From Candidatus Aenigmatarchaeota archaeon (GTDB taxonomy: Archaea > Aenigmatarchaeota > Aenigmatarchaeia > GW2011-AR5 > JAGGXF01), in assembly GCA_021157845.1 (NCBI GenBank), contig JAGGVU010000001.1:1-42834 (forward strand): DNA of 42,834 nucleotides, given 5' to 3'. A model generated the notes under the pieces. That model saw nothing but the letters and a program-made list of their open reading frames with translations, was not told the DNA's origin and did no database searches. Positions within the stretch are counted from its first letter, which is position 1. Each line of letters opens with the position of its first letter. This document shows positions 23,272 to 41,592 of the stretch, one piece after another. A program made the translations under genes and the position numbers.

Positions 23272-24375
23272 TTGTTGAAGCTGATAGTTGGCATAGATCC
23301 GGGCGTGACTGTGGGTCTTGCTATTATTGGTCTTGTACCGCCATTCGGAAAAAATGATTTATTTATCAGAACACTAAGTAGAAAAAATTTTTCTAAGAGT
23401 GAAATAATAAAGGAGATAACAAAATATGGAGAGCCTGTTATAGTTTGCACAGACAAAAAAAGGGCTTCTGATTTGGTACGAAAAATAGGCTCTGCATTTG
23501 GCTCAAAAATTTTTCTGCCAAAGGAAGATTTAGAGAAAAAACTGAAAGCAAAACTAACAGCGAATTATAATCCTAATAACATACATGAACTAGATGCTCT
23601 GGCTTCTGCGTTATATTGCTTTGAACATATACACTCCAAATTGATAAAAATAAAAAACAAAGTTAAAAATGATATAGATAAAGATCGTGTTATTGATTTT
23701 GTTATAAGGCACGGGTTCTCAGTTAATAAAGCAATTAATTTAGCTAGTTCTAGAAAAAACTTAAAACAAAAGATTGTGTACCACACAATTGTTAAGTTAA
23801 GAGATAAACAGCTAAAGGAGGAAAATGAACAATTAAAAGAAAATCTATCAATCGTAAAAACAGCATTAGAAAGACTAAAAGAAGAAAATGCCTATTTTCT
23901 GAAAGAATATGAGCGAATAAAAAAAGACATTGAGAATTATGTGGAAAGAAAGATAGAAAGAAGAACCACATCCCTCTTGAAGCAGTTATCGTCTTTAAAA
24001 AAAGAAAACAAAAGATTACAGAATGAAATAAAAAGATTGAAAGAAAAAGACAACATCAATGCTCGTTATGAAAAAATAGTTTATGTAAAAGATATGACAA
24101 AAAAACATATCAGCCCGAGTATTAAAAATAAAATAGTTTATGTAGAGCGTGTAAATGGAAATATCAAAAATATGGAAAAACTTGGGCCAAAACTGATTAT
24201 TACCCCAGATAAAAAAGCCGAGTTTCTGATAACAGAGATGCCACTTATAATTAGAAAGTTACATCTAAAAAAAATTGGCGAAGACTATTTTGTTAAAAAA
24301 ACAGACCTAGATGAGCTACAAATTAAGAACTGGTTTGTGAAATGGGTGAAAAAATATAAGGAAAGATTTAAATGA
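23272..24375 (+). CDS. DUF460-type protein (RNase H-like fold plus coiled coil)
   Basis: IVGIDPGVTVGLAIIGL ... NNIHELDALASALYCFEHI, long coiled coil; TTG start. Confidence 0.82.
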   Translation: MLKLIVGIDPGVTVGLAIIGLVPPFGKNDLFIRTLSRKNFSKSEIIKEITKYGEPVIVCTDKKRASDLVRKIGSAFGSKIFLPKEDLEKKLKAKLTANYNPNNIHELDALASALYCFEHIHSKLIKIKNKVKNDIDKDRVIDFVIRHGFSVNKAINLASSRKNLKQKIVYHTIVKLRDKQLKEENEQLKENLSIVKTALERLKEENAYFLKEYERIKKDIENYVERKIERRTTSLLKQLSSLKKENKRLQNEIKRLKEKDNINARYEKIVYVKDMTKKHISPSIKNKIVYVERVNGNIKNMEKLGPKLIITPDKKAEFLITEMPLIIRKLHLKKIGEDYFVKKTDLDELQIKNWFVKWVKKYKERFK

Positions 24376-24914
24376 AGAAAATAAAATATACAACTATAAA
24401 TAAAAAACTAAAAAATATTATAAAATTTATTTTCTTATTCTTTATTTTCATGACTCCACTTTACTTTATTTCAAGAAATATTTATTTTTTACAGCTGGCT
24501 ACAGCAAAACTTGTATTCAGCCTTTTGAAGATTTTCAGATTTCGTGTAACGTTAGATGGTGTCAATATATTAATAGCTGGAAAGACCGGATTTTTTTTGG
24601 GTGACATTGCATGGGATTGCACAGGCTGGAAATCTATCATATTATTTATATCTCTTGTTATGGCATCGCCAAAACCCCTGCGTATGAAGGTGAAGGCATT
24701 GATATTTGTGCCTGTTATTTATATTGTCAACATCTTTAGGATTTTTTTCATGTTTGTTTTAGCATCTGAAAATATAAGGTATTTTCAAATTTTTCACCAG
24801 TTTCTATGGTCTTTTGGAATGGTAGCTATAGTTTTCCTTTTATGGCTTAACTGGTTTTATCCTTGTTTTTACTCTCGCCTGATAAAAAAGGCAAATGTAA
24901 AGAAAATTGGTTAA
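24372..24914 (+). CDS. archaeosortase/exosortase family membrane protein
   Basis: DCTGWKSIILFISL (active-site Cys), VNIFRIFFMF (Arg), FQIFHQFLWSFGMV (His); multi-TM. Confidence 0.85.
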   Translation: MKKIKYTTINKKLKNIIKFIFLFFIFMTPLYFISRNIYFLQLATAKLVFSLLKIFRFRVTLDGVNILIAGKTGFFLGDIAWDCTGWKSIILFISLVMASPKPLRMKVKALIFVPVIYIVNIFRIFFMFVLASENIRYFQIFHQFLWSFGMVAIVFLLWLNWFYPCFYSRLIKKANVKKIG

Positions 24915-37616: not shown

Positions 37617-38744
37617 ATGGATTTATTGATATTGTTGAATTCTATAATAGAAGAGAATATTTTTCTAATGAGTTCTTTTGTGGTTTTTCTGATTGGATTT
37701 CTGACTTCGTATGATGATTTGACTATAGGTAAAATAAAAAATAAATATATTTTATACGGTCTAGCCACTGCTGTAATATTTAACATTTATTATCTTTTTC
37801 ATGGCCCTTTATATCTCAAATCAGTTTTATTAAATTCTTTTATAGGGCTTGCAACAGGGTTCTTTTTTTACGTAGCAGGTATATGGACAGCAGCTGATGG
37901 TAAATTATTTTTTGTCTATTCATGTTTAGTTCCATTATCAATATACAAACTTGGCTATGTTAATTATTTTCCCTCTTTCGTTCTTCTGTTGAATACATTT
38001 TTGCCTGTTTTCTTTTTTCTTTTCTTTAATCTTTTGCTAAGAACAAGTTGGAAAGAAAAGATGCATGTTTTAAAGGGTATTTTTCGCCCCAAATTTTTGT
38101 TTCTTTTATTTCTGATTCTTTTTTCATTCCAATGGCTTTTTCCCTTGGTTTTTAAGATACTTCACATACCAGCAGATTTCAGCATCCTAATGATATTCAT
38201 GGTATTTGCAACTATCGGTATTATGTTTTATATTAGAAAATATCTATTTCATTTTGCAATTAGTTTTGCTTTGATAAGAGTTATTTTTGATTTTCAGAGC
38301 ATTTTACATATATCATTTTGGCTCGCCTTTCTAAAGGTTTTTATTTTTGCCCTCTTTTTAATACAGTTTTTATTCACACTTGCCCAGCTAAAATTTTCTA
38401 TTCATACGGATATAGAAAAACTAAAGCCAGGTGACAAATCAGCACAAATGATAATTAAAAAAGGAAAGGATTATGTTGCAGAAACCCTTCCACCGTTTTT
38501 CGCACGGTTTTCTGAAGGTAAAAAAGATATATTGATAAAAAGTTCTGTAAGGCTGACAAAGGAAGATATAGAAAAATTGAAAGCACTAAAAAAAGAGGGA
38601 CGATTAAAATTTAAGCACCTATTAGTAGAGGAAACTATACCATTTGCGCCATTTCTGTTTTTAGGTGTTTTATTAACTTATTTTGTACGAGGCAGTATAG
38701 TGATATATTTAAAACTTTTGTTCTATAAAAATATAGTGAGATGA
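37617..38744 (+). CDS. A24 peptidase-like polytopic membrane protein with C-terminal extension
   Basis: YDDLTIGKIKNKYILYG and WTAADGKLFFVYS keep both Asp positions with GxGD changed to TAAD; C-term KLKPGDKSA...LTKEDIEKLKALKKEG resembles C-term of the 29399 peptidase. Confidence 0.75.
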   Translation: MDLLILLNSIIEENIFLMSSFVVFLIGFLTSYDDLTIGKIKNKYILYGLATAVIFNIYYLFHGPLYLKSVLLNSFIGLATGFFFYVAGIWTAADGKLFFVYSCLVPLSIYKLGYVNYFPSFVLLLNTFLPVFFFLFFNLLLRTSWKEKMHVLKGIFRPKFLFLLFLILFSFQWLFPLVFKILHIPADFSILMIFMVFATIGIMFYIRKYLFHFAISFALIRVIFDFQSILHISFWLAFLKVFIFALFLIQFLFTLAQLKFSIHTDIEKLKPGDKSAQMIIKKGKDYVAETLPPFFARFSEGKKDILIKSSVRLTKEDIEKLKALKKEGRLKFKHLLVEETIPFAPFLFLGVLLTYFVRGSIVIYLKLLFYKNIVR

Positions 38745-38750
38745 TTTGCT

Positions 38751-39272
38751 ATGGAAGATGAGGTTTTCAATAACATGGAAATTAAGGAGAATTGTGTCAT
38801 TGTTTCTGTTAATCCGAAAATATATCCATTAGAGGTTATCCAGTCCGCCGCCTATATTCTGATAGATAGGGTTTATGTCGTTATGGACGGAGATCCTGAA
38901 GAAGAGATATTCGTCCAATTAATACCAAAGGAAACTACTGATTTGCAGAAGCTTGCTTATGAATTTAATAATGAATTACTGAATTACGCTGTTTATCATA
39001 TTCAAAGTAAGCGAAATAAAGAAGTTAGAGATGCGATAGTAAAGAGAGTTTTTCTGACAAATAACGAAGATTATCGACTAGAGACTGATGTAGATATTTC
39101 TACTTCGCCAAAAGTTGAGAAACATTCCCCTGAAGATAATACAGAAAGATTGGAAGAGGAAATGGAAAAAACCAAAGATATAATCGGATATGAAGACGAT
39201 CCTTTAGGAATAGCACAGCCATGGACACCTGAAAAGGCAAAAGGCCTTAAGGAGCTAGATGCTGAAAAATAA
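38751..39272 (+). CDS. HxsD-like protein (His-Xaa-Ser system), copy 1
   Basis: VIVSVNPKIYPLEVIQSAAYILIDRVYVVMDGDPEEEIFVQLIPK...LAYEFNNELLNYAVYHIQSKRNKEVRDAIVKRVFL. Confidence 0.8.
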   Translation: MEDEVFNNMEIKENCVIVSVNPKIYPLEVIQSAAYILIDRVYVVMDGDPEEEIFVQLIPKETTDLQKLAYEFNNELLNYAVYHIQSKRNKEVRDAIVKRVFLTNNEDYRLETDVDISTSPKVEKHSPEDNTERLEEEMEKTKDIIGYEDDPLGIAQPWTPEKAKGLKELDAEK

Positions 39273-39297
39273 CAATGCAGACAAAAATAAATAAAAG

Positions 39298-39399
39298 GTG
39301 GACGATGTGGAAAAGACAGGGCAGACAAGCATGAATAATAAAATAAAGGTGGATAATGTGGAAAAAGCGGGGCAAACAGGCATGAATAAGAATATAGAA
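39298..39399. repeat. 51-bp tandem direct duplication at 5' end of HxsD-like copy 2
   Basis: GTGGACGATGTGGAAAAGACAGGGCAGACAAGCATGAATAATAAAATAAAG then GTGGATAATGTGGAAAAAGCGGGGCAAACAGGCATGAATAAGAATATAGAA. Confidence 0.9.
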
Positions 39400-39642
39400 G
39401 TAGATGAAAAAAACAACTTTGTCAAAGTTAAAATAAATACGAAAATTTATCCAGCAGAAGTGGTTTTGAAATCTGTTCAAAGTTTTGAGGAATCATGCTG
39501 GGTAAATGTTCAGGGCGATCCTAATAAGGAATTGGTGATAACGCTAAAACCAAAATCAGAGGATATAAATGTAAAAACACTTGGAAATGAGTTTTATAAT
39601 TTTGTTCTTGGGATGAGTAAGACAAAAGAAGAAGAATATTGA
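39298..39642 (+). CDS. HxsD-like protein, copy 2 (short C-terminus)
   Basis: FVKVKINTKIYPAEVVLKSVQSFEESCWVNVQGDPNKELVITLKPKSEDINVKTLGNEFYNFVLG aligns with copy 1; true start ambiguous because of 51-bp tandem duplication. Confidence 0.75.
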   Translation: MDDVEKTGQTSMNNKIKVDNVEKAGQTGMNKNIEVDEKNNFVKVKINTKIYPAEVVLKSVQSFEESCWVNVQGDPNKELVITLKPKSEDINVKTLGNEFYNFVLGMSKTKEEEY

Positions 39643-39646
39643 TTTT

Positions 39647-41086
39647 GTGGTGCAAATGGCCATAAGTTACTATGACTATCCTGATGAAAAAAAATATATA
39701 GAAAACAGATTTTTAACTAAAAAATTGGGCGAAAATAGATACCTTATAACAACAGATCATGGCGCGTGGGCAATCTTATCAAAAAAGGAATATGATTTGT
39801 TAAGATTGGGAAGACTTAATGAGGATCCTTCTTTAATAAACTTTCTTGAAGAGAAAGGGATAATTTTAACAGAGAGAAATATTAAAAAGGTTCTCAGCAA
39901 CACACGTGATAAATTCTCCCGTGTTTTCAATGGAACTTCTCTTCACGTTATAACAACGACGTTGAGATGCAATCAAAAATGCATATATTGTCATGCTTTG
40001 TCCAGGCCGATGGATGCAAAAGAATACGATATGGATGAAGAGACTGCTAGGGCAGTCGTCGATTTTATCTTTCAAAGCCCATCTAAAACTATTGGTATAG
40101 AGTTTCAAGGTGGAGAGCCATTAGCCAATTTTGATATAATAAAATATATAATAGAATACGCAAAGAAAAAAAATAGAACAGAAAAAAGAGACATGCGTTT
40201 TATGATTGTTTCAAACCTGACAATGATGACCAAAGAAAAATTAAAATTTCTTTTAAAGAACCAGGTGGGTCTTTGCACCTCTTTAGATGGCCCAAAAGAG
40301 GTTCATGATAAAAATAGAAAATATTTTGATGGTAGAGGAAGTTACGATGATGTGGTTCACTGGATAAAGGATATTAAGAAACAAAATGCATATACTTTAG
40401 GAGCTTTGCCAACCATTAGCAAATTCTCCTTACCATATTGGAAAGAGATAATTGATGAATACAGAAGGCTTGGGTTTGACAGAATAAGAATTAGGAATTT
40501 AATGAACTTGGGTTTTGCTTCTGCAAGATGGGATGAAATAGGATATACTGCTGAAGAGTTCTTGGATTTCTGGAAAAAAAGTTTGGATTATATTTTATCT
40601 TTAAACAGAAAAGGTGTTAGATTTTTAGAGGGCATGACCATTATAATAGCAAGGCAGTTTTTATCAAAAGATTCACAATCTTTTACATGTTGGGGATCTC
40701 CTTGTGGAGCAGCTTTGATGCAGACGGCATATAACCAAGATGGCGATGTTTATACTTGTGATGAAGGAAGGTCTTTTGATATATTTAAGTTAGGAAATGT
40801 CAAAGAGAATACCTATAAAGAAATTTATACATCAGACGCTGTTTTGAATATAGTTTCGCTATCCTCTATGAAATCATTTTTATGTGATAATTGTGTTTGG
40901 CAGCCATTTTGTACAAACTGCTTGACTTGTAATTATGGCCAGCAAAAAACTCTTGTGCCAAAGATGCCAGAAAGCTTTGAATGTAAAATCAAAAAAGGTA
41001 TGATTGAATATGTTTTTGAAAAGTTAACAAATAGTCCTGATAGAAAATATCTTTTAGATTGGACAAGAACAAAAAGAGGGATATAA
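39647..41086 (+). CDS. hxsB: HxsB-like radical SAM/SPASM maturase (His-Xaa-Ser system)
   Basis: YYDYPDEKKYIENRFLTKKLGENRYLITTDHGAWAILSKKEYDLL; TTTLRCNQKCIYCHALSRP (CxxxCxxC); IEFQGGEPL; C-terminal CDNCVWQPFCTNCLTC. Confidence 0.88.
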   Translation: MVQMAISYYDYPDEKKYIENRFLTKKLGENRYLITTDHGAWAILSKKEYDLLRLGRLNEDPSLINFLEEKGIILTERNIKKVLSNTRDKFSRVFNGTSLHVITTTLRCNQKCIYCHALSRPMDAKEYDMDEETARAVVDFIFQSPSKTIGIEFQGGEPLANFDIIKYIIEYAKKKNRTEKRDMRFMIVSNLTMMTKEKLKFLLKNQVGLCTSLDGPKEVHDKNRKYFDGRGSYDDVVHWIKDIKKQNAYTLGALPTISKFSLPYWKEIIDEYRRLGFDRIRIRNLMNLGFASARWDEIGYTAEEFLDFWKKSLDYILSLNRKGVRFLEGMTIIIARQFLSKDSQSFTCWGSPCGAALMQTAYNQDGDVYTCDEGRSFDIFKLGNVKENTYKEIYTSDAVLNIVSLSSMKSFLCDNCVWQPFCTNCLTCNYGQQKTLVPKMPESFECKIKKGMIEYVFEKLTNSPDRKYLLDWTRTKRGI

Positions 41087-41157: not shown

Positions 41158-41592
41158 ATGGGAAAGAAACTGCCAAAAATCAAGAAAACTATAAGTTCTT
41201 TTTTAACAGGCGAAGAAGGCAAGATAACCAAAAAATCTTTATTAATGGCAGGCGCCTTTCTTTTAGGAACAGCTGGTTTGGCAAAATCTGCTGCTGCCAG
41301 TCATGACCAGAATATAGCACATTCTGATTCATCATCTGTAAGTTATGCATCTGGCCAGGTTCAGGCTTCACACTCACATTTTGATCCTGCTCATGCTTCA
41401 CATTCATCCCACGGTAGCCATGGCTCTCATGGCTCCCACGGTTCCCACAGTTCTCATTCCGTTCACACTTCCCACGGTGTTCACAGCTCCCACAGTTCCC
41501 ACTATTCTCACGGTTCCCACACTTCCCACTCTGTTCACTCTTCCCACGCCTCCCACACAAGCCATGGTTCTTGTCTTGTAACATGTACATAA
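41158..41592 (+). CDS. His-Xaa-Ser repeat precursor peptide (HxsA-like)
   Basis: MGKKLPKIKKTISSFLTGEEGKITKKSLLMAGAFLLGTAGLAKSAAASHDQ... then 19 tandem (S/V)Hx triplets and SCLVTCT; track ORF opens at 41137. Confidence 0.88.
   Translation: MGKKLPKIKKTISSFLTGEEGKITKKSLLMAGAFLLGTAGLAKSAAASHDQNIAHSDSSSVSYASGQVQASHSHFDPAHASHSSHGSHGSHGSHGSHSSHSVHTSHGVHSSHSSHYSHGSHTSHSVHSSHASHTSHGSCLVTCT
41398..41568 (+). repeat. 9-bp-period coding repeat (19 units encoding (S/V)-H-x)
   Basis: Units such as tcc cac ggt / tct cat ggc / gtt cac agc, with synonymous variation. Confidence 0.92.

Follow-up and report, generated by a model that had tools for sequence, protein, structure and literature searches.

An archaeal hxs operon variant encoding a probable HxsA substrate with a two-cysteine tail

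The 144-residue ORF studied here (ATG at 41158, stop codon 41590-41592) probably encodes the HxsA substrate of an archaeal Hxs system, in which HxsB would act on a histidine-rich triplet array and a second radical SAM enzyme, rSAM2, on the cysteine tail before export by the Sec pathway. The window, meaning the whole stretch of 42,834 nucleotides analysed, is the entire contig C7 of a 718-kb genome (91% complete), which is taken to belong to the Aenigmatarchaeota (DPANN). HxsA is the fifth gene of an operon that runs A24-type peptidase, HxsD, HxsD-like, HxsB, HxsA and rSAM2 (Table 1). The substrate type, HxsB and HxsD are already known by name. As far as the literature was searched, the new elements are the HxsC-free layout with rSAM2 tracking a two-Cys tail, an aromatic tail and the A24 partner; the search, which covered few subscription journals, found no description of any of the three. 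The Hxs system was reportedly predicted computationally by Haft and Basu in 2011, and to our knowledge its chemistry and role have stayed unsolved since that prediction. The results below split the problem into an array that keeps S-H but varies freely in length and at x, a tail that comes in two alternative forms, and an unnamed radical SAM enzyme that tracks one of these forms. The link between rSAM2 and the tail permits a concrete guess at the role of rSAM2, approachable without first solving the harder array chemistry.

Table 1. Positions of the operon genes and of the parts of the HxsA precursor in the window
Feature	Position	Strand	Basis
Membrane aspartyl protease of the A24 type, prepilin/preflagellin peptidase-like; opens the operon	37617..38744	+	PF06819 Arc_PepC 23.5 bits (gathering 23.4)
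HxsD	38751..39272	+	TIGR03976 55.9 bits, cut-off 50
HxsD-like second small subunit	39298..39642	+	NF038315 46.6 bits, cut-off 41
HxsB radical SAM/SPASM maturase with RRE-like N-terminal domain	39647..41086	+	TIGR03978 432.5 bits, cut-off 370
HxsA (HxsA4-type) precursor	41158..41592	+	NF038313 52.1 bits (cut-off 55), E 9.4e-14; leader and array match the family
Conserved leader motif LPKIKKTISSFLTGEEGKITK	41170..41232	+	leader alignment of 60
Hydrophobic segment up to AKSAAA, with a signal-peptidase-like site ahead of SHD	41233..41298	+	inspection; homologues comparable
Array of 19 (S/V)-H-x triplets	41398..41568	+	sequence
C-terminal tail SCLVTCT, two cysteines	41569..41589	+	sequence; rSAM2 association
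rSAM2, PapB/CteB-like radical SAM, runs off the contig end	41618..42832	+	NF047865 PapB 100 bits, cut-off 340

The first-pass annotation had described the ORF as an exported precursor with an uninterrupted array, and what it described in the sequence was confirmed. A script counted 19 triplets at residues 81-137 (16 SHx and three VHx, uninterrupted over 57 residues). Also as claimed are the basic leader FLTGEEGKITKKSLLMAG, a hydrophobic stretch that runs up to AKSAAA-SHD, and the S-C-L-V-T-C-T tail with its CxxxC spacing. A signal-peptide-like AxA site is present by inspection and alignment. The proposed radical SAM setting of this leader-bearing precursor was borne out by the adjoining HxsB (432 bits against a cut-off of 370). 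The interpretation in that annotation gained support in part, from the radical SAM gene, the AxA site and the link between Cys tail and radical SAM enzyme, but it missed the neighbouring genes and the existing HxsA name. The ORF is no orphan; the NCBIfam name HxsA4 exists for such proteins. In leader, array and operon position it agrees with clear members, and its leader and array match the HxsA4 (NF038313) and HxsA3 (NF038309) families, although it scores under both cut-offs (43.4 against 65 for NF038309). All 19 HxsA homologues tested match both models at E<=1e-3.

Several comparisons addressed the pattern of the array. Chance does not account for the array: shuffling the residues of the mature region 20,000 times gave no (S/V)Hx run above six. 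At the DNA level, 16 of the 19 nine-base units differ. Compared unit against unit, the window array has a pN/pS of 0.26 for the codons of S/V and H, as opposed to 0.98 for x. Pooling 33 homologous arrays gave 0.23 at S-H and 0.83 at x, and the S-H value was the lower one in 30 of the 33. Given the low pN/pS at S-H and the differing DNA units, the protein pattern is what selection keeps; the array is a feature of the coding sequence rather than a repeat of the DNA itself. A CRISPR-like or other DNA-level repeat was ruled out because the unit DNA varies and S-H is kept. Two shadow ORFs over the array, 41189-41590 on the minus strand and 41345-41581 on the plus strand, were regarded as mirror ORFs of the repeat. 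Across array units Ser precedes His in 87%, and x is G, S, A or T in 95%. Since Val replaces Ser in three of the 19 triplets of the window, a Ser-dependent bond cannot form in every unit.

The window operon is a variant of the Hxs system and not the canonical four-gene system (TIGR03979/TIGR03978/TIGR03977/TIGR03976). It resembles that system in that HxsB and HxsD score over their cut-offs and an HxS-repeat substrate lies in the same operon; unlike it, the window has no HxsC and carries rSAM2, an extra HxsD-like gene, an A24 peptidase in the operon and a Cys tail on the substrate. For HxsC (TIGR03977), nothing reached E<=1e-15 in the genome that holds the window, which is 91% complete and whose contig ends at the operon, and nothing scored above cut-off across 59 genomes (this one and 58 relatives). 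HxsC was likewise rejected as the identity of the downstream radical SAM gene, which does not reach TIGR03977 and has PapB as its nearest named family. A defence system was also considered and rejected; PADLOC returned generic viperin-type radical-SAM similarity only. Scans for sigma-70 promoters and terminators were uninformative, the host being an archaeon.

Structure models and sequence comparison characterised the enzymes further. The AF2 model of HxsB (pLDDT 90, pTM 0.89) has a beta3-alpha3 N-terminal domain of the RRE type at residues 22-89. Its best Foldseek match was CteB (5wgg, E 7.7e-24), and anaerobic sulfatase maturase and TigE (8vpo) were also among its structural neighbours. The HxsD model shows an alpha/beta core with a pLDDT of about 97 over residues 11-100; an identity of HxsD as a winged-helix RRE was set aside on this model, and the RRE-like domain sits in HxsB instead. 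The best Foldseek matches of HxsD were RPB11/RpoL-type subunits, although weak (E 3.6e-3). The RPB11/RpoL fold pairs with a partner in RNA polymerase. Given this likeness and the two adjacent HxsD genes, it is at most a fair guess that HxsD and the HxsD-like protein would form a heterodimer. The N-terminal part of the HxsD-like gene contains a 51-bp tandem duplication (39286-39389) that yields a repeated VEKxGQTxMN segment. In the alignment, the rSAM2 of the window is without a roughly 85-residue N-terminal region present in its homologues, the close ones of which are 607-656 aa long. The nearest solved relative of rSAM2 by sequence is CteB (5wgg), and the nearest named family is PapB at 100-130 bits, far below the cut-off of 340.

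Scanning GTDB genomes with seven archaeal HxsB sequences gave 80 loci, mainly in DPANN archaea, with others in CPR bacteria, Omnitrophota, Elusimicrobia and Myxococcales. About 50 of the loci carry HxsA, recognised via its leader. A survey of Patescibacteria found HxsB in 3 of 380 genomes, too few to add power. The gene order A24-HxsD-HxsD'-HxsB-HxsA recurs across DPANN archaea and some bacteria. The leader consensus of the HxsA homologues is P-K-I-K-K-x-I-x-x-F-L-x-x-E-E-G-K-I-S-K, with P kept in 53, K in 51, F in 53, E in 55, G in 50 and K in 55 of the 60 aligned leaders. Behind the leader comes an h-region that has a conserved G and, in most cases, an AxA-like end. Array length ranges from about 2 to 51 triplets (H-x-x-H units).

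Some homologues join the leader or array to other domains. At L065 (6850-7422) the array is fused to a Peptidase_S74 intramolecular chaperone domain, which is otherwise familiar from phage tail spikes and hints at a trimeric fibre. At L064, L074, L091, L032 and L057, the HxsA leader with an array or a TTS linker is fused to a conserved domain of ~300 residues that starts with CPFxxxWNG; this domain had zero Pfam matches in the four proteins tested (L032, L057, L074 and L091). Locus L036 (3645-6425) encodes, on the strand opposite the hxsB operon, a 926-residue protein with HDNC/HSNC/SYPES-type repeats, a possible His/Cys-rich substrate of another type.

The tails of HxsA fall into two types. 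The count took complete, unfused HxsA only (n=45): 13 carry two or more Cys in a short tail, the other 32 do not, and 25 of these 32 end in W, Y or F. Of the refuting condition set in the first-pass annotation, homologues without Cys tail and leader, one half applies: the leader is kept in essentially all, whereas the Cys tail is absent from 32 of the 45. An rSAM2 model was made from ten homologues and sought in whole genomes. rSAM2 was present in the genomes of 11 of the 13 HxsA with a two-Cys tail, compared with 2 of the 32 others (Fisher p=5e-7, a raw value that relatedness greatly weakens, since the HxsB tree holds only about three informative independent tail/rSAM2 contrasts, which all or almost all agree with the link and give a sign test p of 0.25). 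The suggestion that the cysteines might carry a thioether therefore gained a link to a second, thioether-type radical SAM enzyme, although the tail is not common to all homologues. The discordant loci are L030 (one Cys, with rSAM2), L042 (no tail Cys, with rSAM2), and L044 and L050 (two Cys, rSAM2 not found). The rSAM2 model was partly seeded from counted loci; G001, L028, L066 and L075 took no part in the seeding.

To lessen this circularity, we also searched outward from rSAM2 and read the surroundings. In G580, Cys-tail HxsA proteins ending GSACPCCAGVGAEI and QGGWC lie beside two rSAM2 genes, and Cys-tail HxsA was also found in G113 (SHYSCIFCCYAF) and G065 (HANCPAN). The window's own genome holds a second rSAM2 (contig C2) downstream of a TTS-repeat protein ending SCSLHGPCPPDIHDI. 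In G001, rSAM2 lies near a protein with an HxsA leader, TTS repeats and Cys clusters; as this protein bears the HxsA leader, the Hxs leader also serves proteins without an HxS array. The loci of the TTS-repeat proteins with Cys near rSAM2 are L008 (G000 contig C2, 1-182) and L145 (234-980). Weaker rSAM2 relatives (200-250 bits) occur without HxsA nearby, indicating that the wider rSAM2 family is not confined to Hxs; a weaker relative in G056 adjoins a 71-aa Cys-rich peptide. At L143 (6347-6562), a 71-aa peptide ending CAPAPSCTCKGVCHCEDDCIDACPGDCSVA lies by an rSAM2-like gene and is a candidate Cys-rich RiPP precursor; an NCBIfam search with it gave no match.

The enzymes can be compared with characterised systems that share some of these features. 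By sequence and structure, the best relatives of rSAM2 and HxsB are the PapB and SCIFF-maturase (CteB) ranthipeptide enzymes. PapB links Cys with either Asp or Glu at a loosely set spacing (PMC9413430), and SCIFF maturases such as CteB form a Cys-Thr thioether (PMC8326336). Unlike PapB ranthipeptides, the window tail has no CX3D/E motif, and rSAM2 falls under the PapB cut-off of 340. A PapB-type acceptor (Cys-Xn-Asp/Glu) is absent, as SCLVTCT holds no Asp or Glu, which makes Thr, the acceptor in SCIFF peptides, the more probable one here; by this analogy a Cys-Thr thioether is possible on the window tail. TvgB modifies each TVGG unit of TvgA, converting Val to cyclopropylglycine (PMC9062424). 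Here too a radical SAM enzyme works on a tandem-repeat precursor, but the repeat is TVGG and the modified Val is not the conserved residue of the window array. The geometry of the three-residue cyclophane RiPPs (triceptides), which are defined by an aromatic-X-X crosslink, would fit a period-3 H-x-S pattern, but HxsB has an equivalog family to itself, and scores against the cyclophane models stay well short of their cut-offs.

From these comparisons, we propose that HxsB, with help from the two HxsD proteins, would bind the leader consensus and, still in the cytoplasm, modify one H-x-S unit of the array after another, in the way that TvgB treats TVGG repeats. A bond between the His and Ser side chains of each triplet would suit the three-residue period. 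rSAM2 would act on the two-Cys tail, and the outcome would probably be a thioether, like those made by CteB and PapB. Sec would then export the product, with cleavage either at the AxA site or by a dedicated A24 peptidase. Outside the cell it may form a His-rich rod or stalk, perhaps a metal-binding one; metal binding by HxsA is plausible. Given the free length, the S74 fusion, the CPFxxxWNG domain and the TTS linkers, a structural product is likelier than a short bioactive peptide. A further picture, which we offer tentatively and as less likely than not, is a two-headed precursor that serves ultra-small archaea and CPR bacteria as a stalk on their surface: HxsB would staple every H-x-S unit into a stiff rod, rSAM2 would cap the Cys tip, the A24 peptidase would free the product, and an aromatic end would serve where rSAM2 is missing.

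Other explanations of the tail and the array were weighed against these data. The tail could be a redox, anchoring or metal site (a disulfide, a dimer or an attachment point), with rSAM2 working on the array in place of HxsC or on another peptide. The tails vary widely (CLVTC, CC, CxxC, CxC), most are without Asp or Glu, rSAM2 was not found in the two Cys-tail genomes of L044 and L050, and with canonical HxsC absent rSAM2 could fill its place. We nevertheless consider this unlikely: full HxS arrays with aromatic ends occur without rSAM2, rSAM2 copies adjoin array-free TTS proteins with Cys clusters, which points to cysteine rather than the array, and the nearest characterised relatives of rSAM2 are thioether enzymes.

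Less likely still is a role of HxsA chiefly as a His-rich surface protein that binds metal without being modified, HxsB and HxsD then acting elsewhere or on the leader only. A His at every third residue, the small x, the variable length and the export signal would all suit such a protein, but plain metal binding needs neither an adjacent RRE-bearing radical SAM enzyme nor a Ser before the His, and HxsB and HxsA are genetically linked across phyla with one leader type. A secreted RiPP peptide with an antimicrobial or signalling role we regard as very improbable, even though the layout of precursor plus maturase and the several more radical SAM genes nearby in relatives would agree with it. The visible part of the operon, whose contig ends in rSAM2, holds no exporter or immunity gene, and the core varies about 25-fold in length; the S74 fusion, the CPFxxxWNG domain and the TTS replacement suggest a structural stalk.

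Export of the proposed HxsA substrate by Sec is consistent with its n-region, h-region and AxA site, as seen by inspection and alignment. TatC was not found in 11 DPANN/CPR genomes, the window's included; this argues for Sec rather than Tat, and Tat export was ruled out for the window genome. In the Myxococcales loci L099 and L102 the leader is of the twin-arginine type (TRRDFV) and the genome has TatC; KK-type leaders occur where TatC is absent.

The hxs operons of DPANN archaea are linked to an A24 aspartyl protease. It is the immediate upstream neighbour of HxsD-HxsB at 32 of 82 loci (29 on the same strand) and lies within six genes in 51 of the 82. The motifs SYxD(L/I)..KIRNKW and (A/G)GDxKLF are kept in homologues, reading TSYDDLTIGKIKN and AADGKLF in the window, and the aspartate motifs are generally intact. 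The window also encodes an ordinary A24 prepilin-type peptidase (PF01478; 29399-30208, minus strand) apart from the hxs operon, and on this ground the operon peptidase looks dedicated. A class III (A24/prepilin) substrate would have a charged-G/A cleavage site immediately ahead of its h-region. EEG-KITKK precedes the h-region of HxsA (G kept in 50 of 60) with polar residues after the G, and this motif also occurs in loci without an adjacent A24 gene. We infer that the operon peptidase could cut HxsA; its substrate need not be HxsA, as it is present in 15 of 29 hxs loci without HxsA. The window's own genome carries a second hxs operon with no HxsA beside it (L007, G000 contig C1, 7092-12731, minus strand), which contains A24, HxsD, HxsD-like, HxsB and two further radical SAM genes. 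Elsewhere in the window, 24372-24914 encodes an exosortase/archaeosortase-like membrane protein (PF09721, 46 bits), which suggests that the genome has sorted surface proteins.
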